Below are positions 8,515 to 51,294 of a stretch of DNA of 64,000 nt, in pieces. Below the pieces are notes generated by a model. It was given only the letters and a program-made list of their open reading frames with translations. It was not told the origin of the DNA and made no database searches. Positions within the stretch are counted from its first letter, which is position 1. Each line of letters begins with the position of its first letter. The DNA lies in NCBI GenBank assembly GCA_009746045.1, contig RPFO01000348.1, positions 522,350 to 586,349 on the forward strand, written 5' to 3'. The DNA is from Mesostigma viride. Lineage: Eukaryota > Streptophyta > Mesostigmatophyceae > Mesostigmatales > Mesostigmataceae. A program made the position numbers and the translations under genes.

Positions 8515-9590
8515 ATTAAAATTAAATTAAGTTAAATTATATAACATGACTCCGTTGGGAGATCATGCAGCACATATTCCCGTGGATGGATGGAGGGGGG
8601 GGCAAACCCGCGGAGCCGAACTAATCTAACTCTAATCTAATCTAATCTAGAAAACGTACCCTACCTATTCTACTCAGCAAAGCGCCCCTTCCGCTTGGGG
8701 GGAAGGGGGCTTGCCCACAGGGGCGGGCGTATGAGCCTGGACAATGGTCTTCCACCTCTTCTTGTCCTGCATAGCAGTCCAAGCAAGAGAGAGGGAGTGA
8801 ATGCGGTGTTCAAACTGAGCTGGGACCACTAGGTCAGCCAGCAACTGCTGTGGGTACGGGTCATGACATGTTTGCCTACCTTATTAGGAATGTCCTTGGG
8901 GCCAGGCCAGGTCAGGATATGCCGCCCTGGCTGGCAAAGCCGCTAGCTGGGGGCCGGCCAGACCGAGGTCGGTGTCGACCTGGCTGGTGCGAGCATGATG
9001 TCCTACGAATGCTATCCTACGCTGTCTAATCTCGTCCGAAATGCGAGGCATGCCCTGGTACAAAGATTCTAAAGACCTATGCATGGAAAACCCTACATTC
9101 AGGGCCGGCCTGACGGAGCATCCTGGTTACCATGCCGTCTAGCTTCAATGGCCGCCAGTGTGTCCGTGAGCGTCCATGCCTCGGCGCCATACGCCGGCGA
9201 GCACCGTGAGGACGAGGACCTTGAGGAGCATGCGCTTGCGGTGCTCGCCGAGGGCCTTCGAGTACCAGTAGGTTTTGAGCGAACGATGCCTAGCCCAGGC
9301 CAGGCCAATGCGGGTGTCCACATCGTCGGCGGTGTCAGGAAGCATGCTCCCCAGCAGTAATTGAAGCGATCACGAAACGGGACCTCCGTCCCGTCTAGCA
9401 GCCACGGCAGCGGTGGGCGACTGGAAGCCCCAATCACCATAGCCTCAGTTTTGACACTAATCTCCAACCCCACCGCCCTCGCCTGCAAGCCCAGACAGTC
9501 CAGCCAGGTCTGAATGTGCTCGGGGCGCGCGATGAGGGTGGTGTCATCCGCATAAATCAGGTCGGATAGGCGGTAGCCCGGGTCCATGGA
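8515..9590 (-). mobile_element. L1-like LINE fragment: reverse transcriptase C-terminal part and 3'UTR
   Basis: On the minus strand 9587-9099 encodes YADDT (the RT catalytic motif, as DLIYADDTTLIARPEHIQ) followed after a frameshift by AYGAEAWTLT and, near 9080-8884, MPRISDEIRQRRIAFVGH, all typical of the end of LINE RT domains. The 3'UTR runs through 8880-8545 and ends with the hairpin CTCCCAACGGAG (about 8546-8557) and an AT-rich tail (8516-8543). The element is 5'-truncated and carries frameshifts, so it is dead. A second copy of the same part is at 23926-24430, and an uninterrupted 3'UTR relative serves as the empty site for the piggyBac insertion at 19614. Confidence 0.8.
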
Positions 9591-9951
9591 ATGGATGGTG
9601 TAAGCTATCTAGGTCCTAGTTGCAGGGGTGTGGGCACCGCGGCCCGAATCGCTATGAATGCCATACGCGGTCACACGCGGAGGGCTCCCCCACAGACTTG
9701 GGGGTGGTCTCCTTCATCACTACTTGCCATCTATCCTAGCTTGCGTGCCATCTGCCTCCGTATTACAGACAAACCAGGAGGCTGCCTGGGCGTGAGCCCG
9801 TCGCGTCTCGTGTAGCACATGTCCATGCCGAGGGCTATCACGAGATCAAGTCAACTCCGGTGGCGGCCCGGCCTGCCGCGCGCGGCTTGGGGCACGCCAG
9901 GTGAGGACATATCGCCCAGGCTAGCAGTGGGCGGGTTTGGTGCCAGCTAGT

Positions 9952-10560
9952 CTATCTGATGTGTCTACCTGATCTGTGCGGGCCAGGTGCCCGGCTAGGC
10001 CCTAGGCGCCTGTGCCTGATAATGTGGGAAACATAGGGCAAATCAGCGTACAAATCCTCATTACTAATGTGCAAACCAAAGGGGATGTTAAGGGCCTTGC
10101 GCAGCATCTTGGTGACGTTGCCGACGAGTCGTTGCTCCAGCTCCTGCGTCAGTGTCCAGGTCTCGGCGCCGTAGCCGGTCAGGATCGTCAGAATGACGAC
10201 CTTGAAGAGGTCACGCTTGACGATCCGGGACCACGTAGGGCGGGGTTGCTCCACCAGCGGCGGTGGTCATGGAGGTACCGCCCACGCCATGCCGATCCGT
10301 GTCCTCAGGTCGTCCTCGGGAAGCCAACTGCGCCGAGCAGCTTGAAGCGGCCTGAATTAGGGTAGGGGACCTCGGTGTTGTCTAAGAGGCGAGTGTGGGT
10401 GGGGGCCCTGTCATGCCGAGGGCCAGGGCCTCCGTTTTGGGGCTGATTTCTAGACCAACCGCCCGAGCTTCGAGCGCCAGGCAGTCCAGCCAAAGTTCCA
10501 GGCAGACTCCGGCTTCTCGATGAGCGTGATGTCGTCAGCATAAATGAGGTCAGCTAGTAA
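9952..10560 (-). mobile_element. Second LINE RT fragment, diverged copy
   Basis: Minus-strand frames at 10254-9952 read GYGAETWTLTQELEQR, NVTKMLRKALNIPFGLH and PYVSHIIRHRRL, the conserved region after the RT catalytic core. The YADD-proximal part (TNKISLLIYADD-like, frame-shifted) lies around 10560-10305. Frameshifts break the reading frame. The stretch 9591-9951 between the two LINE pieces holds no recognised gene. The stretch 10561-10744 ends in a TTAATTAA-rich tract. Confidence 0.7.
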
Positions 10561-10744
10561 ATTCTGCTTGTTGGTCGGGCCCCCTTCTCCAACTCGTTCG
10601 TGATCGCTAGGCCGGGGGCACGGCCTGCAATGCTAGCAAAGCGAGCACGTGCCTGGCGCATAACATTAATTAATCTGGCACCGCGGCTTGATGCCAAGCT
10701 AATTGTTACACACTTATTAATTAATTAATTAATTAATTAATTAA

Positions 10745-13565: not shown

Positions 13566-13572
13566 TTAATAG

Positions 13573-14213
13573 CCCAGAGACTTGACCCTGGCGCAGCAAC
13601 AAAGGCGACGGGAGCTATGGCCGACCTACCTCCAGCTCCGGCAGACCAAGGCGGGCCAGCCGGTGTACTGGAAGGGGGCAGCCATCTACGTCGGCCACAA
13701 GCCCTGGCACGCGACCCCCTCGACCACCGCGGCCCCAGCGACCCCAGAAGCCCCAGCCTAGGGGAATACAGCAGTAGTAGTGTAGAATAGATAGACCGTG
13801 GCCATGTACATGTACGCCTACTACAGGCACTATACTAGCTAAGTCACGCGCTTTATTTAACCATGTACATGCGTGCCGATGATGTGCCACACTAGCTCCA
13901 GATGATGCCTAGCTTTATTTAGTTATGCTGTGCCCATGCAGAGAGCTGCTCTCTGCTGAGATGTCACGCTCTAGCTTTTGTATAGCTATGATGATCTTCC
14001 CCCCCATGACAGGCTCCCCCTTCGCTGGGCATAGCTTGATAGATCATGGGGATGCAGGTGCCCTGGTGCACCTAGAGCAAGTGTTGTTTACTGTCATTCC
14101 CACTCTTGCATGAAGTAGCTTTGAATGTATTATAGGCTCATATGCCCCTTCTCTAGCTGGGCTATGTGCTACATATACTCCCAACGGAGTTATGTTCCTA
14201 ATTAATTAATTAT
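13573..14213 (+). mobile_element. ORF1-only LINE derivative, copy 2 (5'-truncated)
   Basis: Starts inside the ORF1 C-terminal domain (LTLAQQQRRRELWPTYLQLR, QPVYWKGAAIYVGHKPWH). The ORF stops at about 13760 and is followed directly by the 3'UTR, ending in ACTCCCAACGGAGTTATGTT and a TTAATTAA tail. At 14222-14400 an inverted 3'-end piece of the same family follows. 14401-14780 contains a further diverged 3'UTR piece with GCTCCGTGGGGAGC and no gene. Confidence 0.75.
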
Positions 14214-14780: not shown

Positions 14781-17280
14781 CAGTTACATCGTTTTTCCCG
14801 TCTTTGTTCTTACCGTGTTGATTTCATCACGACTCTTGTTGAGCTCTTGCAGCGTTTATTGGTCAAAGGCTATGACCGAGCCATTATGCTCCGTCAAGTC
14901 CGATGTTTTTTGCAACGTCACCCATGCACATCTGTTCGGTGCTGCCCCTTGGCACAAGCTCTACAAACAGGTCGTGGACCGGCTGGATCGCATAGTATCT
15001 CCGCACATCTGAACCCTGTGATGCCAGATCTCCTTTGCGGCCGTTCCGAGCTTGGCACTGGATTCGTTGTCCACATCGTCGCGTCGCTGCCGCAACACGA
15101 TGTTTTCTGGCATCCGCGGGCTTTTGGTTCCCGCCGCACATTTGAAAGTGCTGTCCTCCGGCTTTTTGCCTTTGCACCGTGTGCAGTTCTTGGACGTTTG
15201 GAATCATGGCATGGCTAACGTGATGACTGACTAGCTAGACCTTTTCAGTGGTTTTCCATTTGCGGGTATTTCCTCGTAATTAACCCCTGAATGGGCAGAA
15301 ATACTGCCGATGCATCGGCTGTAACTTCACAATTTTGCAAACCAGATGCCATCCAACCCACCCATATCCAATGGCTGTCCTTGGGGGCCAAGCATGTCCA
15401 TGAGTTGCCCTTCGGGTTGGTATATCACAACCTTACATATATGCAGGGTAGGCCATGTATAACTGCCGTCAAAGTCAGGGGGGTCAAGACGAGCGTTTTC
15501 ATTTTTGGTAGAATGTGCATTTTGAATTATGTTGTAAGAGCTAGGCACCTACCACTTCAGGGACGATAAACAATTAGTTGCTGAACAGTTTGAGCCATTG
15601 GGGTCATCATTTGGGTGGGTATACCAGCAGTTACACCCAGTACAGCCCATAGGGGTACCGTTGGTAAAAAGCAACCAAGGGGGTAGGAGTGGGCATACTA
15701 CCTACTAATACCTACTAATATGGCCCCCAACCATGCCACACAATACATTTCCCTTCCACAATGATGGGGAAACATAACTGCATCATCACACTGCCCTTAC
15801 ATGGCACCTATGTGCAGGTGCCACCTTGTCCATGCACGTAGGTAACGTGGTACGGATACCCTACGCAAGGCATGCATTCTAGGAGGCAGCCACCAACAAA
15901 CTAGTGACTTTAAGCCTATTTCAGCTTGCCCTAGCAAGGATAAACTAGGCCTAAGCTGCTATAGCTTGCCAGGTGATGGCCAGCACACCTGGTGGCACAT
16001 GCTGACAATGGGAAGCTTCTACTCACCGGTTACATGCTTGATGATGCCACAGAGACCAGCCAACTGCCTCACACTCATGCAATATGCGTGTGGGAAATGT
16101 ATAACAAACATATATGGAGGTATTCAAACCCATACAGCCTCTAAAACTTATCACCATCACCCTGTGGCAGGTCAACTGACTGAGGGAAGCATCTAAGAAG
16201 GGTGTTTTAGAAAGGGGCCAGGCCAGGGTCAAGAAAGAGCATGAATAATGCAAAAAGAATGTGCTACACAAGCTAGAACGTACATATAAACGTCAAACAT
16301 CGATTGGAAAACGATAACTCAGCTTTACCAGGCATGGATGGCGTTACCTTGGCCCAGGCGGTGGCGGCAAAATGGCGCATTTCGGCACACCAAAGTTGTG
16401 CAGCATGGTCGCTGGATTCGGCGATTTCTGGCCACCCTTGCACGTTTACGACTACCATGTATCATAACAAGTACAAAGAAACCAATATATCCTTTAAAAT
16501 ACGCCGGAAAGGTATTGCTGTCAACGTTTCTATCGTCCGGCCTGATCGCAGTTTTTTCCAGCAAGAACGCTGCCGACACCTATCAAATGGCACTCCCGCG
16601 AACCAAAAATTGGCCTGTATGATCTTTAGGACGTATAAAATCAATATCCTAAGTTTGGCCAGAAAATTCGAACGCAAACGTAAATGCCATGCGTGGGCGC
16701 AAGCCGCCATGGCCAGGTCGTCGTTTTCCGGAATGCACGTTGTACGTGGAAAAGTACCCTGACCCCTTGTACTTTGACCGGCCAGAACACCTCTATAACT
16801 TTGTCAGAAGTATGCAAACCCTAGTACCATGCTGTGAGGAAAATTATAAACTTTCGATCTTCTCAGCTAAACGTTTCCTAATTCTCAATAGTTTTCGCGG
16901 CATTTGGTCCCCCGAGAAGGGGCCGACGTGTCGGCTGTAACTCAGTTTTAGGCGGAAAATCGGCAGCCAGACCATTTAGGGGTTAAATGGTGGGAGAGCG
17001 ATCGCAGCAACTGGTGCTCACCACTAGACACTCCCGGCCAGCTAGGCTAGAAACACACGCCCTGATCAAGCATGCTGTTTCCGGCCCCACCGTCTAGGTC
17101 ATCTAGTCGCTCCACATGTAAGCCAGCCATAATTTCAATGCACAAGGATACACATTTCCATCACCATTCATCTTCATCATCCTGAACGACTCGAAAACGC
17201 GGAAAAGATAACGGCAGGCTCGAGCTACCATGGTCCGGATTCTCCCGATTTCTGGCCTGCGCTGGTTGTCTCTTTGATAC
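14781..17280 (+). mobile_element. Penelope-like retroelement, copy A, split by a piggyBac-type MITE
   Basis: 14781-15279 matches the RT C-terminal part and 3'UTR of the longer copy at 35960-37153. After the MITE 15284-16982 the 3'UTR resumes at 16983 and runs to the conserved 3' end GCGCTGGTTGTCTCTTTGA at about 17279. The frame is broken by a 4-bp TGCA insertion at 14925-14928 that the two other copies lack. Confidence 0.75.
15284..16982. mobile_element. Non-autonomous piggyBac-type element (1,699 bp) with TTAA duplication
   Basis: TTAA flanks both ends (15280-15283 and 16983-16986). The termini are inverted: left CCCCTGAATGG, right (reverse complement) CCCCTAAATGG. Subterminal near-palindromes GCCGATGCATCGGC (left) and GCCGACGTGTCGGC (right), both followed by TGTAACT, add to the symmetry. 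The paralogous Penelope-like copy at 23571-23590 preserves the empty TTAA site. No transposase was recognised; internal ORFs up to 152 codons show no family features. Confidence 0.85.
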
Positions 17281-18545
17281 ATGGCCACGTCACTAAGCTT
17301 TCTAGTCTACACTACTGCTATATATTCCCTAGGCTGGGGTGGCTGGGGTGGCTGGGGCGGCAGGGGTCGCCTGCCAGGGCTTGTGGGCGACGTAGATGTC
17401 CGCCCCCTTCCAGTAGACCGCGGCTTCTGCCCCGCCGTCTGCCGAAGCTGGAGGTAGGTCGGCCATAACTCCCGTCGCCGCGTTGTTGCTGCGTCAAGGT
17501 CAAGTCGTCATCCAGCGTGTAGGCGGTCCCCCCAAGCCGCTTGCGACACTTGAGGAACTCCATCTTATCCGCCATGGTGTCAAAGGTGAGGAGCAAGGGG
17601 GATCCCCTCGAGGGGCCGGCCTTACCCCGCGAGCGGGGAAGGCGGGTCACCCCCCGCGGCTTGCCCTTACCAGTGATAGCCATGGGGACAAGGATTTTGT
17701 TCTCAAACGCCATGGCAAGGGTCTCGGGGGTCTCGTCCTGCAGCGGGTCGAAGTGCTTGACTATGACGTTAAGGCTGCGCTTGGCGAGCTCGGCCTCCTC
17801 GCGGAGGTCCAGCGTCTGCTGCTTAATTAAGCTGGGCGGCGACGGCGGAGGTGGTGGAGGTGGCGTGCTGCTTAAGCATGTCCGCCCAGGTCGGGACGGG
17901 AGGAGCATCGCCGGCAGGGCCATCAGGGGCTGGCCGAGCGACGATGTCCTTCACCGCCTGGGCGGTGATGCCGGCGGTGTTGTGCAAGCATTCGATGGCT
18001 ATGGCATTGTCCTGCAGGCGCTTGTCGATGGCGAGGAGCTGGGCGGTGAGGGCGTCGGTGGTGGTGGAGGTGGAGGCGAGGAGCTTGGAGGTGGCGGTGG
18101 TGGTGGAGGAGAGGAGGGGAAGCTCGGCAGCCAGCGTGCCCCCATGGCCGCCACATCTGCGGCGAGGGGGGTTACGTGCTGCACGAGGGCCTGGTTGATT
18201 CGAGAGCCCGTCATATAGGTGGGGAGATCAGCATAGCTATACAAGAGCTAGAGCGTGGCATCTCAGCAGAGACCAGCTCTCTACATGCATGATGGGCACG
18301 GCATAACTAGCTAGATAAAGCTAGGCATCATCTGGAGTGTGGCACATCATATAGGCACACATGTACATGGCTAAATGAGATTCGTGAGTCAGCTGGTATA
18401 GAGCCTAGCTGTAGTAGGAGGCTTACATGTACAAGGCCACGGTCTATCTATTCTACACTACTATACTGCTGTATTCCCCTAAGCTGGGGCGTCTGGAGTC
18501 GTTGGGGCCGCGGGGGTCGCATGCCAGGGCTTGTGGCCGACGTAG
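17281..18545 (-). mobile_element. ORF1-only LINE derivative, two minus-strand pieces
   Basis: Piece one, 18235-17281: minus strand encodes ORF1-like protein with a Pro/Ser-rich N-terminal part (HHR/PPP runs near 18240-17930), EEAELAKRSLNVIVKHFDPL, a short basic linker, and LTQQQRGDGSYG/GLLEGGG at the C-terminal end, with frame changes. Piece two, 18545-18240: the last ORF1 codons followed by its 3'UTR (ATGCCTAGCTTTATCTAGC). The pieces carry frameshifts and lack an RT. Confidence 0.65.
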
Positions 18546-18880: not shown

Positions 18881-18884
18881 ATGG

Positions 18885-19029: not shown

Positions 19030-19103
19030 GACCTGTCGAGCTACCGGCCATGGTCCGGATTCTCCCGATTTCTGGCCGGCCTGCGCTGGTTGTCTCCTTG
19101 ATA
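19030..19103 (+). mobile_element. Short Penelope-like 3' end insertion
   Basis: Carries the family end with one internal 4-bp addition (CTGGCCGGCCTGCG where other copies read CTGGCCTGCG) and ends CTGGTTGTCTCCTTGA. The following 19104-19430 holds no recognised gene. Confidence 0.7.
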
Positions 19104-19613
19104 TTAATGATATCAGTAGTACATTGAGACATTGTTTCACTGAGGACTGGGATCTGGCAGAATTCGGATCTAGACAGTGAGCTAGTAGACAATATATAGG
19201 CACAGGATCGTCACCACGCCATGTGTCCTTGCAACTTTTTCTCTCCCAAACGATTTGTGAGGGCCAGTTTTTGGACAAACTAATACTTGTGAGCTAAGTA
19301 AGTGCGTGAACATGCACTGAATGCATGCCATGGAGTACCCGATGAGCCGTACTTCTCTACGCGGATACTGCACTCGCCAAGGCAGGTGGCGTGAGACTCA
19401 CTCGTCCAGGTGTGGAGTCGGACAAGCTATTAAAATTGAAAATTAAATTAAATTATAACATGACTCCGTTGGGAGATCATGTAGCACATATTCCTTGCTG
19501 GATGGGTGGAGGTGGGCGAAGCCGCGTAATCGAACTAAGCTAACTCTAAGCTATCTAGGCTAGAAAATCCTAACTACACTAGCTACTCAACGCAAAACGC
19601 CCCTTCCGCTTAA

Positions 19614-22466
19614 CCCCTCAACCGTCTTTGACTCGTGACTAAAATGAGTGACGAGTTGCACAGTATGCCACAGGTGCCCCCATTCAGCCTAATTATTTTT
19701 TCTAGACCATACTAGGAACCAAGCATAACCATATTAGGGCCCACCTAGGGGTATAGTGGGTGGTCCCAGTGCTAGCCCCCCCTGCTCTATAAATAGCCCC
19801 CCCCTCAGGGGGGTACGGTGAGTGCGCGCGGTGACACCCTTATAATGGATGATAGACCCCTTTCCTCGATGAGTTGACCCTGGGGTTGGTTTTGTAGATA
19901 GATTTTTTAGTTAGGATGGGATACAAACACTAAAAATTGTAACTCCCCCAGGGACCCATCAGCTGGTGCTAAAAATAACTGGTGACTATTTTGAGTCGCG
20001 AGTTTTTGGGGGGCTAAAATAGGCATCCTAGTGCAGTTTTGAACATGGAAACGATAGGTAAGCATGGAGTATGGGCAAACATGCATGCTAACACTTATTC
20101 CAACCTGTGTGCCACCAATACCTGCCATAACCACTGCAGGTCCCTGCCGGATATGATTGGAGACGACTACGCGCGGGCCGCGAGTACGGGGTTCACAACC
20201 TTATCATGCATGATGGAGCACGTATACCTTGGATTTCACCCTAGTATTTCAGGGGGGACTGCAACTGTACCCAAGCACTACATCCAAACACTTACATGTC
20301 TTGTTTCACCCAGGGACCCACAAGATAATGCTAAAAATAGCTGGTGACTATTTTGAGTCACCAGTTTGGGGGGGCTAGAATAAACATCCTAGTGCAGTTT
20401 TGAACATGGAAATGATAGGTAAGCATGAAACATGCATGATTATGTTTATTCCAGCCTATGTGGCACAAATATATGCCACAATAAGCGTAAATGCTTGCAG
20501 ACCCGCTGATACTGTGGTACTTATTTTTACATGCATGATGGACCTTGCACACAAAGTCAAAACATCCCAGCACTCCTAGATAAATTAGTGACCAAGGGAC
20601 CATGCATGCAGTAACACTGAAAATTGCCAACTAGAAATAGGTGGCACTGTGACCATCACGGAGCAGATTTTCAAACTGCACAAGTTATGCATAAACATGA
20701 AAGCTAATAAGACATGACCATGAAACAATAACCCATGCAGGCTAACAACATGAAACCAAATAACACATGCACAGGTGGGTCCATGAAACAATAACACACA
20801 CTTCAAACCATGCCGGCCCATGGTGATACACGGCGCGCATGAGCGCGGGCAGGAAAGGCCAAATGCCATGCCACGTAGGCAACAAATGCTAGCATTCTTA
20901 GTCAGCCTCCGTAGGACTATATCCCAGGCGGACATGCTCCGCCCTGAGATGGCGGCGCCGCGCCACCCCCTTGAGCTTCCGGGTGGTGGCTGCTGCCCCC
21001 TCGTGGTAGTGGCGCCCTTGAAATTCTTGGCGCATTCGCCACGCTGGGAGAGGCGCTGCCATACCCGCTGCTTCGTCACGTTGAAGTCCAGCCCCTCCAC
21101 CTGCCCGGAGTGGAAGAGGCCGAAGCAGTTCCGCTCGCTGTTGCTGCAGAACGCCATGTCACAGTGCTCGCACATGACCGAGGTCTTGTGCTTCCTGCCT
21201 TGCGCGCAGCACAGTTGGCACAGCACCTGCTCCACCCAGAAATTTGCCCATCTCATGCATTGTTAAGGGGTGCCACTCACGCTCACCTGGCTTGCCCGCC
21301 CCCTTGAGCTCAGCATAGTCGTTGGTCTCCTTGACAATCTTGGCCACGACATCACGTTGGGACCAGAAAAGGGAGAACAGCCCGAGGGGCCCAAACTTGA
21401 GCTGGGCAGGGGAAAGGTTTTGATAGCAGGCGGTACCCGTCATCGGCGACAGCACCGGAGTATCGGGAAAAGGAAACACACCTGGCTTGCCGAAACCAGA
21501 TTTCCAGACAGTCTCGGCTGGCTCCTCAGTGGCAGGCGTGTCGTTAGGAAAAACGAATCATCGAGCTCAGCCTCACCGCTCGGCACCGGACCCTCCGCAC
21601 CCTTCTGGTAAACAAAGTCGTCATCGGAAGCGTCCGAGACAACGCTCTCGCTGGCCGCCGCCTTGGTCTGACGGCGCCTTTTCGGGGCGTGGCTGATGGC
21701 TGGGTTCTTCTTCGGGTTGCCGACAGCGCGCTTCCCCGGCTCGCGTCGCTTGACCGGTGTGGGCAGCTCGATATCCTCGGATTTGTCGTCGTCGTCCTCG
21801 CCGGCGTCAGAATCGCTATCCTGGCCCTGCTCGCTATCATCGTCACTGCTACCTGCCGTTGGGACCTTCCTGGCTGCGCATTCTTTCACTAGAGCTTCGT
21901 ACTCATCTGAGCTGCACGAATATATGAAAATCTGCTCACGGGTGAATGGGTACGTGAGCTTGTCGTCCGGGAAATAGCACCGTGCACCATCTCCGGACCT
22001 GTTCACTGTCACTACCTTGCCCGGCAAACGTACCTCGCTGTGTTTTTCCCCATACTGCTCTATCGCCCAGTCTAGTCCGAATTTTTCCACAGGCACTGCC
22101 ATGAAAATGCCCTTCTTTACCTTGAAAGTCCGTATATCTGCCTGCATTTCGTCCGCCATGTCTACGTCCGCGCTCCCCCCTTTTTTCGCATCCTTCGTTT
22201 TCGTACGTTTTTGTCAATTTTTTTTACCGCCCAAACCTGCACCAGGGTACCCTGTTGACTTTGACCAGGGTTTCCACCCTGATACGGTGGTCAAATACGG
22301 TCAGACAAGTGTCCTACGGATAGAGTGAATCTAGATCTTTTCGGTGGTCTAGTTGGTTCCCGCCAAAACCTTCCCGCCAAATCCCTACAGGGCGCACAAA
22401 CTCATGCCGAATGTGAGGCATGAGAAAAACTCGCAGTCGAAAATCGGCACGAGGACGGTTTAGGGG
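19614..22466 (-). mobile_element. piggyBac-type transposon, 2,853 bp, internally deleted
   Basis: TTAA at 19610-19613 and 22467-22470. Terminal inverted repeats: left CCCCTCAACCGTC, right (reverse complement) CCCCTAAACCGTC. Flanks are LINE 3'UTR; an unoccupied relative lies at about 8691-8714. It carries a broken transposase gene on the minus strand (20585-22159). The remaining 19614-20584 has a duplicated block (19960-20060 and 20330-20430, sharing TTTTGAACATGGAAA) and no second gene. Confidence 0.88.
20585..22159 (-). pseudogene. piggyBac-like transposase (DDE_Tnp_1_7 type), catalytic core deleted
   Basis: Minus strand, ATG at 22159. The first ~200 residues have an acidic, Lys-rich region (SSDDDSEQGQDSDSD, then PVKRREPGKR and PKRRRQ), common before piggyBac catalytic domains. 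In a second frame (about 21460-21250) comes PLGLFSLFWS, IVKETNDYAEL and EWHPLTMHEMGKFLG, the conserved start of the transposase domain (ETNRYA ... W.P.T..E...FLG in the family). The sequence then jumps, out of frame, straight to the C-terminal Cys/His finger (CQLCCAQGRKHKTSVMCEHC, CFGLFH, about 21230-21110). The DDD catalytic region of roughly 300 residues is missing, so the protein cannot cut DNA. It may need a full-length relative elsewhere to move. Confidence 0.7.
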
Positions 22467-22683
22467 TTAATTGGGGGGAGGGGGCTTGCCCACAGGGGCT
22501 GGCGTGTGAGGCTGACAATCTTCTGCGACCTCTTCTTGTTCTGCATGCATAGCAGTCCAAAGAAGAGAGAGGGAGTGAATGCGGTGTTCAAACCGAGCTG
22601 GGACCACTAGCTAGGTCGGCCAGCAACATCTGGATGTAGTTCATGGCAGGTTTACCCAGCTTTCTAGGAATGTCCTTGGGGCC

Positions 22684-23918
22684 ATTTCATCACGACTCTT
22701 GTTGAACTCTTGCATCGTTTTTTGGTCAAAGACTATTAATTAAATAATTAATTAATTAATTTTAAAATTAGACTCGTGCTCCCGTTGGGGAGTCACGGAG
22801 CATTAACCCCGATGGATGGATGAATGGGTGCAAACAGTCCTACCGGTCTAATCTATCTATCTACAACATCTATCTACAAAATCTATCAACATCAGTCAAG
22901 TCGACCCTAGGGGACCTGTCTGGCATGCTTCCCGCATGTTTGCACACGCGGCCGGGCGCTTCCCCACGGGGGGGGGCTCGTTGTCCTATAGAGCTAGATG
23001 ACCTGGGCCCACTTGGCCTATAATTGTCCATAATCTTTTTCCAATTAATAAATCACGGAGAGGCCTAGGCCCCCCATGTCCTCTACTAGCTGTTCTTTGA
23101 AGGTGCGGGCCTTGCGGCGTCTATAGCATCACGGGGCCCGGCCCACGTAAGGAGGAGTCAAAGACTATGATGACCGAGACATTATGCTCCATCAAGTCCG
23201 GTGTTTTTTGCAACGTCACCCACATCTGTTCGGTGCTGCCCCTTGGCACAAGCTCTACAAACAGGTCGTGGACCGGCTGGATCGCGTAGTATCTCGGCAC
23301 ATATCTGAACCCTGTGATGCCAGATCTCCTTTGCGGCCGTTCTGAGCTTGGCACTGGATTCGTTGTCCACATCGTCGCGTCGCTGCAGCAACACGATGTT
23401 AATTCTGGCATACGCGGGCTTTTGGTTCCCGCCGCACATTTGAAAGTGCTGTCCTCCGGATTTTTGCCTTTGCACCGTGTGCAGTTCTTGGACGTTTGGA
23501 AACATGGCATGGCTAACAAAATGACGTCTGACTAGCTAGACCTTTTCAGTGGTTTTCCATTTGCGGGTATTTCCTCGTAATTAAATGGTGGGAGATCGCT
23601 CGAGCGATCGCAGCATTGGTGCTCACCACTAGACACTCCCGGCCAGTTAGGCTTGAAACACACGCGCCCTGATCAATTATAAGCAAGTTGTTTCTGGCTC
23701 CATGCACCGTCTAGGTCATCCAGTCGCTCACGTACGCCAGCCATAATTTCAATGCACAAGGCTACACATTTCCATCACCTTTCATTGTCCATCACCATTC
23801 ATAATATTCATCATCCAGAATTATGACTCGAACACGCGGACAAGATAACGGCAGGCTCGAGCTACCATGGTCCGGATTCTGCCGATTTCTGACGTACCTG
23901 CGCTGGTTTTCTCCTTGA
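22684..23918 (+). mobile_element. Penelope-like retroelement, copy B, with 13-bp target duplication
   Basis: Bounded by TGTCCTTGGGGCC (22671-22683) and TGTCCTTAGGGCC (23919-23931). It contains a 5'-truncated RT C-terminal part (22684-22735, 23157-23300), its 3' region, and the conserved end TTTTCTCCTTGA. It is itself interrupted by a LINE piece at 22736-23156. Confidence 0.8.
22736..23156 (-). mobile_element. LINE 3' fragment inserted in Penelope-like copy B (11-bp target duplication)
   Basis: GTCAAAGACTA occurs at 22725-22735 and 23157-23167. The insert reads on the minus strand as LINE C-terminal coding sequence (RKARTFKEQLVEDMGGLGL family at about 23110-23040), then 3'UTR, the hairpin at about 22776-22791 and a TTAATTAA-rich tail next to the left duplication. 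The orientation and tail fit 5'-truncated target-primed insertion. Confidence 0.8.
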
Positions 23919-24439
23919 TGTCCTTAGGGCCAGGCCAGGTCAGGATGTGTCACCCTGGTTGGCCAAGCCGCTGCTGGGGTCCGGTCACTGAGACCAAGGG
24001 CAGTATCTACGTCTGACTGGTGCGAGCAAGATGTCCTACACTGAATGCTATCATACGCTGCCTAATCTCGTCCGAAATGTGAGGCATACCGGCCTGATAC
24101 AAAGATTCTAGCAAATGACCTATGGCTTGGAAAACCCTACATTCAAGACCTGACGGAGCTAGCAATGTCCTGTAAAACGTGCCGTCTAGCTTCAATGGCC
24201 GCCAGTGTGTCCGTGAGTGTCCATGCCTCGGCGCCATACATACATAATAAGCACCGTGAGGACGAGGACCTTGAATTAAGAGCATGCGCTTGCAGTGCTC
24301 GCCCAGGCCCTTCTTGGAGCGCCAGTAGGTGTTGAGCGATTGATGCCTAGCCCAGGCCAGGCCGATGCGGATGTCCACATCGTCGGCGGTGTCGGGGAGC
24401 ATGCTCCCCAGCATGCAGTTTGATTGAAGCGATCATGCA

Positions 24440-25033: not shown

Positions 25034-26440
25034 AACGTACGGGACCTCCGCGTCCCGTCTAGAAGCCGCGGCAGAGGCGGGCGACTGGTCCAAGCCCGGC
25101 CCAATTACTGCATCGCCTCAGTTTTGACAATAATAATCTCCAATTCCCCACCGCCCATGCCTCCAAGCCCAGACAGTCCAGCCAGGTCTGAATGTGCTCG
25201 GGGCGCGCGATGAGGGTGGTGTCATCGATCCGCATAAATCAGGTCGGACGGGCGGTAGCCCGGGCCACCGCTGCCGTGTTCGCGCTCGTTAAGGATATGT
25301 CCAAGCCGGGCTCGAACTCAGTACTTAATAATAGCGCGCACGTGCCCGGCACATGATGTGATCCACGACAATTATAATGAACAGATATGGGGGACAGGAC
25401 ACAACCTTGCCACACCCCGAATGGGGCAATGGTGGGGTGGTGCCTTCCGCCGAGTCCGCACTAGTGCCTGTGAGCCCTCATACAGTCGACGAATGGCAGC
25501 AATAAACGCTGGTGGTACCCGATCCAGAGCGAGGATGGCCCAAAGAGCCTCCCAGAGGACCGTGTCAAAAGCCTTGATATAGTCAACAAAAATGAAGACC
25601 AGCGGCAAACCGTCAGGGCAAAGGCGACGCACCTCCTCCATCAACCGGCGCGCGACAAATACAGCCATGACAGTGTTACGACCACGAGGGAAACCCATCT
25701 GAGACTCACCCATGCAGGTGTGCGTCCAGCGCGGTGCGGAGCCTGTGCAGCATCATGCGCATGAAGACCTTCAGCGCGGCGCTCGGGAGGCAGACACCCC
25801 GATATAGTTAAAACCGGGGTCAGCAGCAGAGCCCTTCTTGTACAGCATGACGCGGATGGCCGGCCGTCTGCCACTCAGTGCTCAGGCGGAGGCTCGTCAG
25901 GGAGCACGACACGGTTGCAGAACGCCAGCAGAAGCTCCCTCACCGCCGTGTCAGGGGTCTTCAGCAGCTCAGCAGAAAGGTGGTCGGCACCGACCGCCGC
26001 GTCGTACCGCAGGCGAGCAAGGGCGCCGTCCAATTCCTCCAAAGTGAAGGGGTGGACGACGTCGTTGATGGCAAGGCAGCCCTCCTTCAAGGCGGGGACT
26101 TGGTAGTCCGCGGCCGAGGAGGGGGGCGCAGGCGGCGGGGGTGGTCCGGCAACACCGAGACGGGCGGCCGAGCTCGGGGTGAAGCGGCGGGGGGGGGGCG
26201 CGAGCCCCACCTGTCAAGGAAACATTGTGGGCCAACCAACGGTCATCAAGGCTGACCGGCGCCGTGCCGTCCCCCGTGTGCTCCACCGGGGTGCGCTGCC
26301 GCCGGCCGCAGAGCCGGTCGAGGTCAGGTATACCACATGTCCTTGCCTTGGTTGCGAGCTTGGCAGGCCTTGGCATCCGCGATGCACTGGGCCGCCTCTG
26401 CATCCTGAGCGTGTGCGTAGGCCTCCACAAGGGCGGCCTT
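25034..26440 (-). mobile_element. LINE reverse transcriptase domain, N-terminal and palm parts
   Basis: Minus strand, 5' to 3': VHPFTLEELDGALARLRYDA and VGADHLSAELLK (about 26080-25950), the frame-shifted segment AIRVMLYKKGSAADPGFNYI and FMRMMLHRLRTALDAHLHG (about 25870-25710), GESQMGFPRGRNTVMAVFVA, LVFIFVDYIKAFDTVLWEAL (RT catalytic-type motif), then GCVLSP and IIVVDHIMCRARA remnants near 25400-25330. A YADD-proximal segment follows at 25290-25034, matching 9372-9590. Several frameshifts; dead. The GC-rich 26440-26620 tail shows no further domain. Confidence 0.8.
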
Positions 26441-35670: not shown

Positions 35671-35959
35671 TGCCAATGGATTAAGTCATGCATGTCCTGA
35701 GCAAGGTGTATTTAGGGCATGCTAAAGTCATGTCCTGAGTAAGATAAATTGAAGGGTATTTGCGATCGCCATGCGTCCAGGCATAGTTGTCTCACTTCGT
35801 ATCTAACGTGACGCAGTTACGTGTACATTAATTAATTATGGAACTTAGCAGTGTGTATGTCCGGTGTGAAGCGCCGCGCTGGATGCTAGTACCCAACTAT
35901 ACGGTGCTTGTGGCTGAATATTTACTTTTGTAGTATGTTCAGTCTACCATAGGTAGATA
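35671..35959. other. Intergenic, SRD5A3 to Penelope-like copy
   Basis: No gene seen. It contains a 31-bp repeated word (CGCCATGCGTCCAGGCATAG..., 35767-35797) that recurs at 50921-50953 and 55775-55805. Confidence 0.5.
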
Positions 35960-37153
35960 TCGGACGTAAAGGGCTCCTTGCAAACCTCTATCTATACACT
36001 TATGAGCTTGCATTCATGGAGAATCTCATCGCTTCAAACGATGATGTTCTCATCAGGCGTTTTATCCATACATGTCGATACATTGATGATGTCATCGCTT
36101 TCGACAACCCTGATTTCGCAACCCATTTGTATATCACCGCTGGTCTGCCTGGCATCTACCCGCAAGCGTCCCTCACATTAAAGCTCACGTCGGAGGATAC
36201 TCATTGCAATTACCTCGATCTTAACATTACCCATAACAAGAAGGGCTGGCGTACGGCTGTCTATGATAAGCGCAAGGATCCTAAATACCAGCAAATTCCT
36301 TTTATTCGTTACCCCGATATTCACAGTCTCCTTTCCCACACAGCAAAATATGGTGTTGTTCTTTCTCAGTTACATCGTTTTTCCCGTCTTTGTTCTTATC
36401 GTGTTGATTTCATCACGACTCTTGTTGAACTCTTGCAGCGTTTATTGGTCAAAGACTATGACCGAGCCATTATGCTCCGTCAAGTCCGATGTTTTTTGCA
36501 ACGTCACCCACATCTGTTCGGTGCTGCCCCTTGGCACAAGCTCTACAAACAGGTCGTGGACCGGCTGGATCGCATAGTATCTCCGCACATCTGAACCCTG
36601 TGATGCCAGATCTCCTTTGCGGCCGTTCCAAGCTTGGCACTGGATTCGTTGTCCACATCGTCGCGTCGCTGCCGCAACACGATGTTTTCTGGCATCCGCG
36701 GGCTTTTGGTTCCCGCCGCACATTTGAAAGTGCTGTCCTCCGGCTTTTTGCCTTTGCACCGTGTGCAGTTCTTGGACGTTTGGAATCATGGCATGGCTAA
36801 CGTGATGACTGACTAGCTAGACCTTTTCAGTGGTTTTCCATTTGCGGGTATTTCCTCGTAAATGGTGGGAGAGCGATCGCAGCAACTGGTGCTCACCACT
36901 AGACACTCCCGGCCAGCTAGGCTAGAAACACACGCCCTGATCAAGCATGCTGTTTCCGGCCCCACCGTCTAGGTCATCTAGTCGCTCCACACGTAAGCCA
37001 GCCATAATTTCAATGCACAAGGATACACATTTCCATCACCATTCATCTTCATCATCCTGAACGACTCGAAAACGCGGAAAAGATAACGGCAGGCTCGAGC
37101 TACCATGGTCCGGATTCTCCCGATTTCTGGCCTGCGCTGGTTGTCTCTTTGGT
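35960..37153 (+). mobile_element. Penelope-like reverse transcriptase element, longest copy (5'-truncated)
   Basis: The frame ending at 36594 reads LLANLYLYTYELAFMENLI, then FIHTCRYIDDVIAF (YIDD is the RT catalytic motif), NYLDLNITHNKKGWRTAVYD, IRYPDIHSLLSHTAKYGVV and LHRFSRLCSYRVDF. The layout (AN-YL-E, YxDD, then a LDL...VYDKR...YP segment) differs from the L1-like RT in this window. It best resembles Penelope-like or a related single-ORF RT; the class is not certain. A 560-bp 3'UTR follows, ending in GCGCTGGTTGTCTCTTTGG. The 5' half of the RT and any endonuclease are missing. Confidence 0.65.
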
Positions 37154-37372
37154 AAATGATGCGGTGAACAGCCGTTTCTCAAGTGCGCGGACGTAAATGA
37201 CCACGGACGTGACATGTATCCTAGAAGCGAGACCATCTGTCTGTGCAGCATGCCGCGAGTAAAGGTGGTGTATGTGTGCTGGGTTGCATGAGCTTGAGAA
37301 AATTCTTGACCTGATTTCGGCACAATGCACTTGGTGTATCCTTCCTTGCTATTTATTCCTATTACTGTTATC

Positions 37373-38300
37373 TAGGAGACAACCAGCGCAGGCCAGAAAT
37401 TGGGAGAATCCGGACCATGGTAGCTGTTATGATTATTGTTGTTTTAAACCCTTGCAGGAAGTAGCCCAGAATGTATTAAAGGCCATATGCCCCTTCTCAG
37501 GGATATGTGCCACCTTTACTCCCAACGGAGTCATGTTCCTAATTAATTAATGGTTTCAAATACATTCCAAGCAACAACCTGCAGGTGGGGGGTGTATACT
37601 GCCAGCTAGGCCGGCTCTGCATGATGGACCCGTGCACACTTGATGCATGAGGTGCACCTGCACCACCACCATGTATTCAGCAGCAAAGACGTGCTGACAT
37701 GGGGTGAAAGGTGATCATGCAGCTAAACAATAGCTAGTGAATGGCTTCTCAGGCTCCAGGAGAGGCATTTCTCCCAATCCAGCGCCTTTAATTGCGTTGC
37801 AAGCCCATCGATATGTGGGCTCAGTGCCGGACCATGGGGCCGACTTACTGGATCCCGTGCTTTTGCTATGTCTTGAAGCTTTATTGCACGGCCCCCAGTT
37901 GCGCCCGCATCATGATGCGGATCGAGAGAGCGCTCTGTGCATGGCCTGCCAACTTGAGGCAGTGAGCCAAAAAGCTAGGGCGCCCTGCCGAGGCGGCGAT
38001 CGAGGCCTAGGTAGCTTCTCATTGTGTATACAGGGGTTAAGAAGGTTCCTTTATTGGTACCCATGCACGTGAATAGGTATGACACGAGCCACGAGATATA
38101 GCCATGGCTAGCTGACGGCAGCGCCCATAACTTTCACGTTTGGGCTCCAAACTTTGCCACGACTAAAAAAGACGAAGCGATTGTCAGACTTTTTCTAAGA
38201 TGCACGCGCTGATATATATTTTCCTGAAGTTATCACGCATTATTATGACGAGCAAACGCTCCTCGACGCAATGCCTGATGCAGCCTCGCGCCCTGGCCAC
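37373..38300. mobile_element. Mixed retroelement scraps
   Basis: 37373-37424 is a minus-strand Penelope-like end. 37440-37550 is an ORF1-element 3' end with ACTCCCAACGGAGTCATGTT and a TTAATTAA tail. 37551-38073 is diverged repeat related to 24840-24990. 38074-38300 matches the 5' part of the ORF1-only element at 48850-49060 (shared CATAACTTTCACGTTTG-like words). No intact gene. Confidence 0.6.
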
Positions 38301-46980: not shown

Positions 46981-47442
46981 TCTTCTGATCAGACACTCCG
47001 CAAAGGTGAAAACCTTTGCGTTCAGTGCCAGGCCGCGGAAAACGCGGAAAACGCGATCTGCAAATGAATCCGACCGGAATCGAAGTGGGGACCTCTCGCA
47101 CCAATTTTGCTGACTATAGGACGGACGTCTCCGGTTACCATGGCATCGCCAACTTACACCTACAGTCATCCGCAAAAGTTCTCCTGTCCGGGGAGTGATG
47201 CAAGCCTTTCGGATTTGGTACTAGATAAATCACTCGAGATCTGTGTGTAGGAGTACTACACACGTGTCTGCACGCGAGACTTGTTCAGTCTCGCACCGTG
47301 AGACGGGCTGAACACGGCTGAATCCTTCTTTTTAGTAGAAGGGGGCGTAGCCGGTACTATCGAAATCAGCCAAGCGTATATTCTGATCAGACACTCCGCA
47401 AAGGTGAAAACCTTTGCGTTCAGTGCCAGGCCGCGGAAAACG
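46981..47442 (-). mobile_element. tRNA-like SINE, long form, minus strand, plus a partial repeat of its end
   Basis: 46981-47389 is the inverted counterpart of 47947-48346. On its minus strand it has a box A-like TATAGTCAGC and a box B-like AGTTCGATTCC-type block spaced as in RNA polymerase III promoters. 47383-47442 repeats the GATCAGACACTCCGCAAAGG end. Confidence 0.6.
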
Positions 47443-47630
47443 GTGCAGTATCTTGTGATATTTAAAATTATGCCAATGCCTACGAAACAATGATGCCAAC
47501 GCTGACTGCAATTAGTAATATATTGTAACTTGTAGCTCGGATTTCTGGCCTGCGCTGGTCGTCTCCTTCACATGCACATCTCAACACGCTGGTTTTAAAA
47601 AATTAAATTTAGTTGGAACATATCGCCGGA

Positions 47631-47783
47631 GACGTCCGTCCTATAGTCAGCAAAATTGGTGCGAGAGGTCCCCAGTTCGATTCCGGTCAGATTCATTTGC
47701 AGATCGCGTTTTTCCGCGTTTTCCGCGGCCCGGCACTGACCGCAAATGGTTTTCACCTTTGCGGAGTGTCTGATCAGAATATC
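47631..47783 (+). mobile_element. tRNA-like SINE, short form
   Basis: Contains only the tRNA-like head (TCCGTCC, TATAGTCAGC, then AGTTCGATTCCGG) and the tail ending CGGAGTGTCTGATCAG. ATATCGCCGG occurs at both edges (about 47620-47629 and 47776-47785), consistent with a target duplication, although part of that word overlaps the SINE consensus. It precedes an ORF1 fragment. Confidence 0.55.
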
Positions 47784-48780
47784 GCCGGTGTACTGGAAGG
47801 GGGCGGCCATCTACGTCGGCCACAAGCCCTGGCAGGCGACCCCCTCGACCACCGCGGCCCCAGCGACTCCAGACGCCCCAGCTTAGGGGAATACAGCAGT
47901 AGTAGTGTAGACTAGATAGACCGTGGCCATGTACATACGCTTGGCAGAATATACGCTTGGCTGATTTCGATAGTACCGGCTACGCCCCCTTCTACTAAAA
48001 AGAAGGATTCAGCCGTGTTCAGCCCGTCTCACGGTGCGAGACTGAACAAGTCTCGCGTGCAGACACGTGTGTAGTACTCCTACACACAGATCTCGAGTGA
48101 TTTATCTAGTACCAAATCCGAAAGGCTTGCATCACTCCCCGGACAGGAGAACTTTTGCGGATGACTGTAGGTGTAAGTTGGCGATGCCATGGTAACCGGA
48201 GACGTCCGTCCTATAGTCAGCAAAATTGGTGCGAGAGGTCCCCAGTTCGATTCCGGTCGGATTCATTTGCAGATCGCGTTTTCCGCGTTTTCCGCGGCCT
48301 GGCACTGAACGCAAAGGTTTTCACCTTTGCGGAGTGTCTGATCAGAATGTACATGTACGCCTCTTAGAGGCCCTATCCCAGCTAAGCCACGCGCTTTATT
48401 TAATCGTGTACATGTGTGCCTATGATGAGCCACACTCCAGATGATGCCTAGCTTTATTTAGTAATGTTGTGCCCATGCAGGGAGTCACTCTCTGCTGAGA
48501 AGCCATGCCATAGCTCTTGTATAGCCATGCGCTGGTTGTCTCTTTGATGATGATCTCCCCCCTCACAGGCATGCTCCCCCCTTACCCGGGCATAGCGTGA
48601 TAGACCATGAGGGTGCGGGTGCCCTGGTGCACCTAGAGCAAGTGTTGTTTACATTCCCACCCTTGCAGGAAGTTGCTTAGAATGTATTATAGGCTCATAT
48701 GCCCCTTCTCAGGGTTATGTGCTACATATACTCCCAACGGAGTTATGTTCCTAATTAATTAATTAATTAATATCTCCGTT
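47784..48780 (+). mobile_element. ORF1-only LINE derivative, copy 3, interrupted by a SINE
   Basis: Begins in the last ORF1 codons (VYWKGAAIYVGHKPW) and runs through the 3'UTR to ACTCCCAACGGAGTTATGTT and a TTAATTAA tail. It is interrupted by the SINE 47947-48346 and by a 20-bp Penelope-like end at 48529-48548. Confidence 0.7.
47947..48346 (+). mobile_element. tRNA-like SINE, long form with extra 5' module
   Basis: About 400 bp, flanked by ATGTACAT (in CCATGTACAT at about 47929-47936, and at about 48347-48354). The uninterrupted host 3'UTR reads CATGTACATGTACGCC. The extra 5' 240 bp contain the perfect hairpin CCTTCTACTAAAAAGAAGG and a run of GTGTGTAG/CTACACAC palindromes; its origin is not recognised. 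The tRNA-like head (box A, box B) follows and then GC-rich tail sequence. Confidence 0.65.
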
Positions 48781-48842
48781 GCTTACACATGGTCCGGATT
48801 CTCCCGATTTCTGGCCTGCGCTGGTTGTCTCCTTGATATCTC

Positions 48843-50863
48843 CGTACGGCCCCATGAGCCACGAGGTAGCCATGGCTGACGGCGGAGCTCACAACTTTCA
48901 CGTTTGAGCACCGAATTCAGCCGTGAATATCACAATCGATGCGTCTTTCTACGACGCACATGCTGATATAATTTTCCAAAGCTATTACGCAATATACGAT
49001 GAGCATACGCCTCTCGACGCAACGCAGCCTGGCGGCTGCGCTCGGCAATGAAAATACGCCTGCAGCCTCGGCCGCAGCTTCGCCCCCCGGCCCAGACGGC
49101 GACGGTGACACTAGTCGTGCACTGGTGCTCGCCCAGCCCTCCGGGCATGCCTCGCCATCTGCATTGCCTGAACCTAAGCGCAGTCGCTCTGCTGAGCCGC
49201 CCTGGGAAGAGATCACCTTTAACATCAACGCCAATGGATTCTGGAGACGCAGCCCAGGATTCTTCATGGACGACGTGTTTTTTGGCACGCACGCCTCGCT
49301 TCTAGCCCTGTGCGTGCACCTCACGTCACACAACCGCGGCCGCTGGCCTGGTCAGTGCTGGCCAGCTTGCCGACCCTGCCGAGGCTCTCCCAATCATTCA
49401 CTGCATGAATCGCCCCAAGCTCCAACGCTTCGCCCTCTGGTCCCTCCTTGGACGCTCCGAAACCGCGATCTGGGCTTCCCCACCCCCCCACCCCACCTTT
49501 CCCACCGAAGACACCATCCGCACCCTCCTTTCGAGCAGCACGTGACCTCCCTTGCCGCAGATGTGGCGGCTGTGGGTCGCACGCTGGCTGCTGAGCTTCC
49601 CACCATCCCCACCGCCACCGCCACCCTCCTCGCCTCCACCCACCCACCCCCCTCCGCCTCCACCGACTCCATCCGATGGGCGGTGACCGCCCAGCTCCGC
49701 GACATCGACCAGCGCCTCAAGGATAATGCAAGATTTCGCTATCGAGGTCCTGCAGAGCACAGCCGGCCTCACCGCCCAGGCAGTGAAGGACATTGCCGCC
49801 AAGCCAGCCCCGGCTGGCCTGGCCGGCGATGCTCCTCCCATCACGATCGACCTGGGCGGACATGCTTAAGCAACATACCACCTCCACCACCTCCGCCGTC
49901 GCAGCCCAGCTCCAGCGGCAGACGCTTCCGCTGAGGAGGCCGAGCTCGCCAAGCGCAGCCTCAACGCCATACTCAAGAACTTCGACATGGAAGAAGGTCA
50001 GAATTCCGAGAAGCTTGCACGTGCGTTAGAGAGCAAAATCCTTGCACGCATGCATGGGCCTTCTTGGTGAGATCAAGCTGACCGCCCACCGGCGCCTCCC
50101 CCGCGCGCGGGGTAAGGCATGGGGGCGCCTCCGCTTCTTCTCATCTTTGAGAGCCCAGCGGACAAGATTTCGTTTCTCATGCAGACGCCGCAAGCGGCTC
50201 GAGAAGACTCACTTCACTGTGGACGACGACTTGACCAGGCTGGCACAGCAACAACGGCGACGGGAGCTATGGCCGACCTACCTCCAGCTCCGGCAGACCA
50301 AGGCGGGCCAGCCGGTGTACTGGAAGGGGGCGGCCATCTACGTTGGCCACAAGCCCTGGCACGCGACCCCCTCGACCACCGCGGCCCCAGCGACTCCAGA
50401 AGCCCCAGCCTATCTAGGGGAATACAGCAGCTGTTGTGTAGAATAGTTAGACAGTGGCCTTGTACATGCCCGCCTTCTACAGGCACTAGATACCAGCTGA
50501 GGCCTAGCCTTTTTAGTCATGTACATGTGTGCCTATGATGAGCCACCCTCCAGCTGATGCCTAGCTTTATTTACTTATGCAGTGCCCATGCAGGGAGTCC
50601 CTCCCTGCTGAGAAGCCATGCCCTAGCTCTCGTATAGCCATGATGATCTTCCCCCACATGGCATGCTCCCCCTTACCTGGGCATAGCGTGATAGACCATG
50701 AGGGTGCAGGTGCCCTGGTGCATGCACCTAGAGCAAGGGTCGCTAACATTCCCACCCTTGCATGAAGTAGCCTAGAATGTATTAAAAGCCATATGCCCCT
50801 TCTCATGCAGGGATATGTGCTACATTTACTCCCAACGGAGTGATGTTCCTAATTAATTATTAA
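48843..50863 (+). mobile_element. ORF1-only LINE derivative, most complete copy
   Basis: From about 48843 (just after a Penelope-like scrap flanked by TATCTCCGT) to the TTAATTATTAAT tail at 50863. An ORF1 frame opens at 48999 (MSIRLSTQRSLAAALGNENT). It continues through an Ala/Pro-rich N-terminal part, a helical region (LAADVAAVGRTLAAELPTI, EEAELAKRSLN) and, with frameshifts after about 49700, to LTRLAQQQRRRELWPTYLQL and QPVYWKGAAIYVGHKPW, stop about 50443. A 400-bp 3'UTR follows directly; no RT frame is present. No active product is expected from this copy because of the frameshifts. Confidence 0.75.
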
Positions 50864-51006
50864 TATCTCCGTTGGCAGTAAATGTCTCACAACTACCCTA
50901 GTCCTTCCACGGCGTTGGATCGCCATGTGTCCAGGCACAGTTATGTCTCACTTCATATCCTTGAGAAGGGGCTTATGGCTTTTAATACATTCTGGGCGAC
51001 TTCCTG

Positions 51007-51294
51007 CAATTAATTTGTTAATTAGACTCGTGCTCCCGTTGGGGAGTCACGGAGCATTAACCCCGATGGATGGATGGATGGATGGGTGGGTGCAAACAGT
51101 CCTACCGGTCTAAGCTATCTACATCAGCTACCTACGACATCTATCTAACAGCAACTAACTACAACATCTATCTATGCAGCATCACGTGGCCCTAGGGGAG
51201 CTGTCTGGCGTGCCTCCCGTGGGTTTGCACACGCGGGCGCTTCCCCACAGGGGGGGGCTCGTTGTCCTCTATGACCTGGGCCCACTAGCTTGGC
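51007..51294 (-). mobile_element. LINE 3' fragment, left of the hAT insertion
   Basis: Tail near 51007-51020, hairpin CTCCCGTTGGGGAG near 51030, GATGGATGG run, then 3'UTR. The same LINE resumes at 63364-63570 with the coding segment FKEQLVEDMGGLGLSVIWKK on the minus strand. The intact order is seen at 22768-23156. 50864-51006 holds short repeats, including the 31-bp word at 50921. Confidence 0.75.

Follow-up and report, generated by a model that had tools for sequence, protein, structure and literature searches.

The window, the whole stretch of DNA that was analyzed, comprises 64,000 nucleotides of the Mesostigma viride genome (contig RPFO01000348.1, positions 522,350 to 586,349; G000:C1624:522350-586349). 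When copies of its repeats are aligned, one copy often carries exactly four additional bases, and these follow a rule by which a dinucleotide XY becomes XY+rc(XY)+XY, where rc(XY) is its reverse complement. Described here are these insertions, a companion class of two-base insertions, and a family of CACTA/EnSpm transposons whose excision probably produced them.

Insertions at the locus

The window was combined with 22 of 24 fetched loci (L001-L024; L019 and L020, which are all N, were left out of the comparison). The additional loci amount to 192 kb and bring the sample to 256 kb of a genome of 440 Mb in 2243 contigs. A blastn comparison of this sample with itself, from which overlapping tandem pairs were removed, gave 254 high-scoring segment pairs and 95.7 kb of alignment. 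The strict set of indels required at least 10 of 12 bases to match on each side of the gap, with neighboring gaps merged, and a looser set was also compiled. The sites given below, all on the forward strand, rest on this self-comparison, on the looser set, or on re-alignment of the 15 sites named in a preliminary description of the window. The other copies lacking or sharing each insert were tallied as well.

Nine insertions are found by all three approaches. The change of CA to CATGCA is seen at 14923-14926 (relative at 36505; a 499-bp pair of 98.4% identity) and at 50804-50807, where six other copies lack the insert and one shares it. TG to TGCATG occurs at 50719-50722 (five lack, one shares) and at 22542-22545, which can equally be written as CA to CATGCA. 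The remaining five are CT to CTAGCT at 22607-22610 (three lack, one shares), GG to GGCCGG at 22949-22952, TC to TCGATC at 25224-25227, AC to ACGTAC at 23893-23896 (12 lack, two share) and AA to AATTAA at 24274-24277. The self-comparison and the looser set agree on CA to CATGCA at 23701-23704, with five other copies free of the insert, and on five CT to CTAGCT sites absent from the preliminary description, namely 14153-14156 (six lack, one shares), 13892-13895, 18307-18310, 8942-8945 and 9736-9739. Another four new sites come from the looser set alone: CA to CATGCA at 7308-7311, TT to TTAATT at 17827-17830, CC to CCGGCC at 19046-19049 and TG to TGCATG at 37938-37941. GG to GGCCGG at 19074-19077 is supported by the looser set and re-alignment, and CT to CTAGCT at 51285-51290, which lies at the end of a BLAST pair, by re-alignment only. 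In the strict set the two-base class is represented within the window by CG to CGCG at 17481-17482, TA to TATA at 18462-18463 and AT to ATAT at 23301-23302.

Upon re-alignment, 12 of the 15 sites first named hold, whereas those at 24411 (a 6-bp gap), 9103 (a gap beside mismatches) and 25093 (several gaps) are messy. Eleven show a single 4-bp gap against the relative originally given or an equivalent one. A mismatch adjoins the 4-bp gap at 22541, 23891 and 24274, and at 23700 the gap is split against the first relative and clean against another.

The insertion rule and the direction of change

The strict set contains 213 distinct indels, with 70 of 1 bp, 36 of 2 bp, 25 of 3 bp, 54 of 4 bp, 4 of 5 bp and 5 of 6 bp. 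Four bases is the second most frequent length, behind one base and well above five. With ten exact bases on either side of the gap, there are 22 four-base and 23 one-base indels. The concentration of events at about 8.5-51 kb of the window merely marks where repeats align, because loci elsewhere on contig C1 have the same events.

Of the 54 four-base indels, 24 follow the rule, which by its nature keeps both copies of XY around the added bases. When random genomic 4-mers were placed at the same sites, a mean of 0.71 fitted, with a maximum of 5 in 2000 trials; when the real inserts were permuted among sites, the mean was 4.1 and the maximum 10. The preliminary description had regarded the recurrence of one rule as an argument against random indels, and the counts bear this out. 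The tabulation of repeat-copy indels that it proposed, run here on the 256 kb, finds rule-fitting four-base inserts in excess of the nulls. Where the microhomology is at least 2 bp, the rule holds in 24/30 four-base indels against a null fraction of 0.087 (p ~1e-20). With a repeat of exactly 2 bp and six exact flanking bases, rc(XY) is central in 12/12 four-base insertions, and with eight exact flanking bases in 11/11; in the looser set, where exact flanks were not demanded, it lies between the repeats in 21/25. The rule further accounts for 14 of the 22 four-base indels with ten exact bases per side and for 34 of 87 four-base rows (33 distinct) in the looser set. The four-base insertion rule is thereby confirmed as a real observation.

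Longer words behave otherwise. In the looser set only 1/21 six-base and 0/13 eight-base indels fit, and words of three or four bases form no clear class (for three, the excess of runs is just 49 versus 39±6). Likewise, inspection by eye of the 3-bp indels of the strict set gave no pattern indicative of a partial-P class. By eye also, the rule-breaking four-base insertions at L016:5866, window position 9683 and L017:9736 resemble two adjacent 2-nt flank palindromes.

Direction was scored for each four-base event by tallying the other copies lacking or sharing the insert. The insert is missing from at least two other copies at 18 of the 24 rule sites, and there the lacking copies always outnumber the sharing ones; two of the remaining sites stand at 1:1 and four have only one scorable other copy. 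Examples of lacking versus sharing copies, besides the 12/2 at 23893, are 8/0 at L016:5309 and 6/0 at L016:2249. Since copies without the insert predominate, the change is a gain, the direction that had initially been proposed from a single case.

A feature outside the earlier account concerns the self-complementary words TA, AT, GC and CG, which are absent from the 24 rule events (0/24) and give two additional bases instead. All eight exact 2-bp duplications of the strict set are of such words, as are all seven clean ones when six flanking bases must match exactly. Self-complementary words make up 8/32 of the pooled events, close to the 0.239 that they represent among genomic dinucleotides. 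Simple fill-in of 2-nt overhangs is inadequate as an explanation because any word would then be duplicated.

Secondary support comes from period-4 runs, counted as maximal runs starting in palindromic phase and compared with Markov nulls. In the 256-kb sample, runs of exactly six bases number 634 versus 461±18 (order-3 null), with no excess at five or seven; in non-repeat DNA the six-base figures are 383 versus 299±15, and runs of exactly eight bases number 69 versus 34±6. Against this statistic, an order-4 null shrinks the six-base excess to 634 versus 576±16, a phase-shifted class shows an excess at seven bases (186 versus 111±7, mostly in repeats), and Escherichia coli has a weaker six-base excess (275 versus 232±13) with a deficit at eight. 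The run statistic supports the case and does not carry it. The eight-base runs hint that rule insertions fall on 4-bp palindromes already present more often than expected, possibly through a preference for such targets or through a second kind of event that works by fill-in.

CACTA/EnSpm elements and a probable origin of the insertions

The rule would follow from two ends both finishing in XY, and this model predicts a cut-and-paste transposon with a 2-bp target-site duplication (TSD) at arbitrary words. CACTA/EnSpm was presumed to be the best candidate, and a search for Transposase_21 (tnp2, PF02992) followed. In the genome, 150 matches were scored of 239 candidates, most of them uninterrupted by stops and many sharing the same score; PF02992 had no match in any of 14 control genomes. 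The element examined scores 60.1 bits for Transposase_21 against a cut-off of 28.6, and 26.0 bits for DUF4218, just below the cut-off of 27. The presence of DUF4218 downstream of tnp2 is an association found in CACTA/EnSpm elements.

An inverted-repeat search within the first 8-kb CACTA stretch gave no result. The subfamily that was traced has CACTA...TAGTG ends with inverted repeats, and CACTAGGAACTCGTTGGTGG is found at both ends of the element. Exact 16-base termini occur 28 and 32 times genome-wide, equivalent to about 30 copies, with none in the reversed control, and copies aligned to one of them, L026, are 96-99% identical. Flanks were fetched for 20 copies, and both ends are readable in 12; in the other eight an end is missing from the fetched stretch, is mutated, or falls beyond the contig. 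The TSD is exactly 2 bp in 11 of the 12 (TT, TA, CA, TT, CT, CA, CA, TT, GA, TG and TA). The twelfth copy sits in a GGGA tandem array, where a TSD of 2, 6 or 10 fits, and is ambiguous. Two insertions have their empty repeat form on the forward strand of the window, and both agree with a 2-bp TSD. For the insertion on contig C2 the empty site is at 17277-17370, which is fitted by the joined flanks with one TT, and for that on C777 it is at 48852-49113, with one CA/CG; neither junction has an extra base. Two contigs carry one and the same CACTA insertion end next to an identical flank, at L060 (C1491:1111283-1111603) and L065 (C1392:136438-136758), as a haplotig or a duplication.

The family itself has acquired both classes of insertion. 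Approximately 1.4 kb was aligned across 20 copies (L026 and 19 of the 20 fetched copies; L074 gave no match and was excluded), and 43 columns contain substitutions. Outside a 10-bp minisatellite, the sole 4-bp indel is CT to CTAGCT and the sole 2-bp indel is TA to TATA, each in 1/20 copies, and both are fresh gains. Besides these, that part of the alignment has five gaps of a single base and a tandem duplication of 15 bp. The minisatellite (AAAAGTGGTA), near the CACTA end at about L026:730-770 (alignment columns 85-128), differs among otherwise alike copies.

A 2-bp TSD falls inside the range of 2-5 bp given for the clade, whose transposases have motifs in common with Transib and RAG1 (PMC12730594), and it differs from the 3 bp described for plant CACTA elements (PMC4158355). 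The insertions are probably footprints left behind when a cut-and-paste transposon having a TSD of 2 bp was excised, and the likeliest candidates are the CACTA/EnSpm elements that this genome contains. An element would insert with duplication of its target dinucleotide, giving XY[element]XY, as is seen for the one subfamily. Upon excision the transposase would leave both host ends capped by hairpins, each ending in XY, and an Artemis/Pso2-like nuclease would nick these 2 nt from the tip to give the 4-nt overhangs XYrc(XY) and rc(XY)XY. With the same XY on both ends, the outer two nucleotides would always anneal, and fill-in and ligation would then give XY rc(XY) XY, a gain of 4 bp. With AT, TA, GC or CG all four nucleotides would pair, and the product would be XYXY, a gain of 2 bp. 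Hairpin opening 2 nt off the tip at a shared XY would thus yield both rules, and their ratio, from one mechanism. Both product classes are observed, and the route to them is one that we infer. The mechanism suggested before, in which a break with a stagger of 2 bp is filled in as a palindrome in the manner of a hairpin, fits the data and lacks a source for two ends finishing in XY.

The chemistry proposed has precedents. Ds excision proceeds via hairpins to P nucleotides, often with joining at microhomology, and Pso2/Artemis are implicated (PMC5873905). Artemis cuts a hairpin at its apex or 2-4 nt away, which in V(D)J coding joints generates the P nucleotides after RAG cleavage (PMC13041557). 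After mPing/Tourist excision, the ends are joined under the guidance of microhomology supplied by the TSD (PMC4561436). By analogy, it would be reasonable to suppose that CACTA elements pass through a hairpin step like that of RAG, given the kinship of RAG1, which derives from Transib, with EnSpm through common motifs (PMC12730594). The differences are equally clear. The TSD of hAT elements is usually 8 bp (PMC12730594) and their palindromes center on the complement of the border base, whereas here they are even, of a fixed 2 nt, and leave 4 or 2 bp. In V(D)J recombination the joining is diverse and makes a receptor; here the same dinucleotide stands on both ends, the joining is uniform and the product is a scar. 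Repair after mPing excision is mostly precise (PMC4561436), in contrast to the 4 or 2 bp left here. The elements themselves resemble CACTA/EnSpm (the CMC/CMCT clade) in their CACTA...TAGTG ends, Transposase_21, subterminal repeats and many alike copies, and they depart from plant CACTA elements in their TSD; the footprint proposed for them would be uniform for each word. No description of the rule, either as palindromic 4-bp footprints or with 2-bp-TSD CACTA elements, was found among the titles and abstract openings searched.

Several observations weigh against this assignment. Thirty of the 54 four-base indels break the rule and fall outside the model's account, although several resemble misplaced gaps. 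In the loosest set only 13/16 exact 2-bp duplications are self-complementary (3/16 are not), and the figure falls to 4/8 within longer runs of a dinucleotide, where one would expect slippage. The corresponding rule X to X rc(X) X fits 13/36 of all 2-bp indels, no more than permuted inserts can reach (mean 8.0, maximum 14). A fixed opening at +2 is more uniform than the Ds footprints, of which 28 kinds occur among 128 (PMC5873905). The hairpins, the Artemis-like opening and CACTA as the maker are inferred, and one CACTA subfamily only was read to its ends. None of the CACTA copies examined gave a locus at which one copy bears the element and another a scar. The 256-kb sample lacks any end of the subfamily and contains two-mismatch look-alikes only, which do not continue into an element. 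The scars are far denser than CACTA copies, and therefore each surviving copy must stand for many excisions; that an active family of low copy number could make dense scars across many generations is an argument and not a measurement. Finally, a search for the C(2)C and H(3-4)H motifs of RAG1/Transib type gave no secure C(2)C past the tnp2 block, where the exon structure is uncertain.

The serious rival that remains, which we consider unlikely, invokes the same end chemistry (a 2-nt stagger filled, capped by a hairpin, opened 2 nt off and annealed) at breaks from which no transposon departs, made for example by abortive transposase cuts, a nuclease or a Spo11-like activity. It accounts equally well for the rule, for the self-complementary class and for the want of an obvious target consensus, and it sits easily with dense scars in a sample without any recognized element having a 2-bp TSD. 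On the other hand, it requires a hairpin of unknown source at filled-in 2-nt breaks. Plain fill-in would give XYXY for all words, whereas non-palindromic 2-bp duplications number 0/8 in the strict set, 0/7 with exact flanks and 3/16 in the loosest set, and a transposon with exactly the required TSD is present in the genome. It is more doubtful still that CACTA is an innocent bystander and that another superfamily with a 2-bp TSD makes the footprints. This idea draws on the single subfamily read to its ends and on a 299-bp insertion at window 52545-52843 that shows an overlap of 2 bp and is without inverted repeats. Against it, no other inverted-end element with a 2-bp TSD was recognized in the 256 kb, the TTAA-type elements in the sample use TTAA or TTAG, and 38 of 476 inverted-repeat pairs have an outer 2-bp direct repeat, close to the expected 1/16 and mostly in TGTCACGG arrays.

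Replication slippage, template switching or tandem duplication is very improbable as the source. Seven of the 54 four-base indels have microhomology of at least 4 bp and are possible tandem duplications, and four of these also fit the rule. With microhomology of exactly 2 bp, by contrast, 14/16 have rc(XY) central without being tandem duplications, and words of three or four bases have no clear equivalent. Tandem duplication, slippage and random indels were accordingly rejected on the non-tandem rc(XY) inserts and on a rule far above its nulls. That the insertions are errors of assembly or sequencing can be given hardly any credence. Some events are singletons, and the analysis rests on assembled sequence, not reads; still, at 7/24 rule sites the inserted length recurs in one or more of the other copies, the word-dependent +4/+2 pattern matches no error mode familiar to us, and TTAA elements at 15284 and 19612 occupy expanded sites.

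A broader proposal starts from footprints of CACTA excision and appears evenly balanced to us. According to it, CACTA transposases, as kin of Transib and RAG1, cut in a RAG-like manner, an Artemis-like opening 2 nt off the tip of the hairpin-capped host ends fixes a single "coding joint" for each target word (+4, or +2 where the word is self-complementary), and these scars are a main source of new palindromes in the lineage. Four-base indels in its repeats are nearly as frequent as one-base indels (54 versus 70, or 22 versus 23 with the strictest flanks), and 24 and 14 of them, respectively, follow the rule. If the attribution to CACTA is true, the genome would hold a readable log of transposon excisions in the species, with one scar per jump. 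The structure of the CACTA ends, the position of opening and the length of annealing would be legible in the +4/+2 word rule from sequence alone. To our knowledge, little of CACTA excision chemistry has been established biochemically. A plant-type transposon family would be connected with V(D)J-like joining, and there would be a mechanism by which palindromic tetranucleotide microsatellites and TTAA target sites could arise. Mutation studies would have to allow that one class of indel may be largely transposon-made.

TTAA elements and other repeats

Scars of this kind would build up across the genome, where they may give rise to palindromic tetranucleotide repeats and may create TTAA targets for TTAA-type elements. 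It is plausible that rule insertions seed the tetranucleotide repeats, as was suggested at the outset; CATGCATGCATG is counted 3019 times genome-wide versus 189 in the reversed control. At 23581-23584 on the forward strand, one copy reads AATTAA where three other copies read AA, and a further copy holds a TTAA element at exactly that point. This element, of 1.7 kb and piggyBac-type by its TTAA ends, lies at 15284-16982 in the AATTAA form of the 23584 site. A second TTAA-flanked element, of 2.9 kb, occupies 19612-22470 where four other copies read TT, and its flanks are TTAA[..]TTAATT. A third insertion, in L017, uses TTAG and is without a scar. In the simplest reading, scars create TTAA and TTAA-type elements then use the sites. 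The piggyBac/TTAA elements were also considered as scar makers and were ruled out, because most scar words contain no TTAA; CA, AG, GA, AA, AC and CC all occur. An 848-aa open frame (DDE_Tnp_1_7, 118 bits) lies between TTAA sites in a piggyBac element at L024:107-2892.

Other features of the sample are as follows. L021 has a KilA-N frame, and a cluster of open frames at L013:4046-7630 resembles a Polinton-like virus by eye, with no Pfam match (frames 1357-1980 and 5011-6330). Window positions 36367-37158 hold a very abundant repeat with 1986 candidate copies, of which the 40 fully scored are 99-100% identical. The adjoining open reading frame at 35953-36591 has the look of a Penelope-type reverse transcriptase by eye, with no Pfam match. 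A 992-bp near-perfect foldback at 53060-54051, in which 444 of 448 scanned arm positions pair, has 5-bp direct repeats GCCGG and lies within a set of nested duplications, 99% identical, at 51495-54985. At 57692-58740 and 63847-63936 the window has long tetranucleotide arrays (CTCC/CACC/CTCA, TACT).

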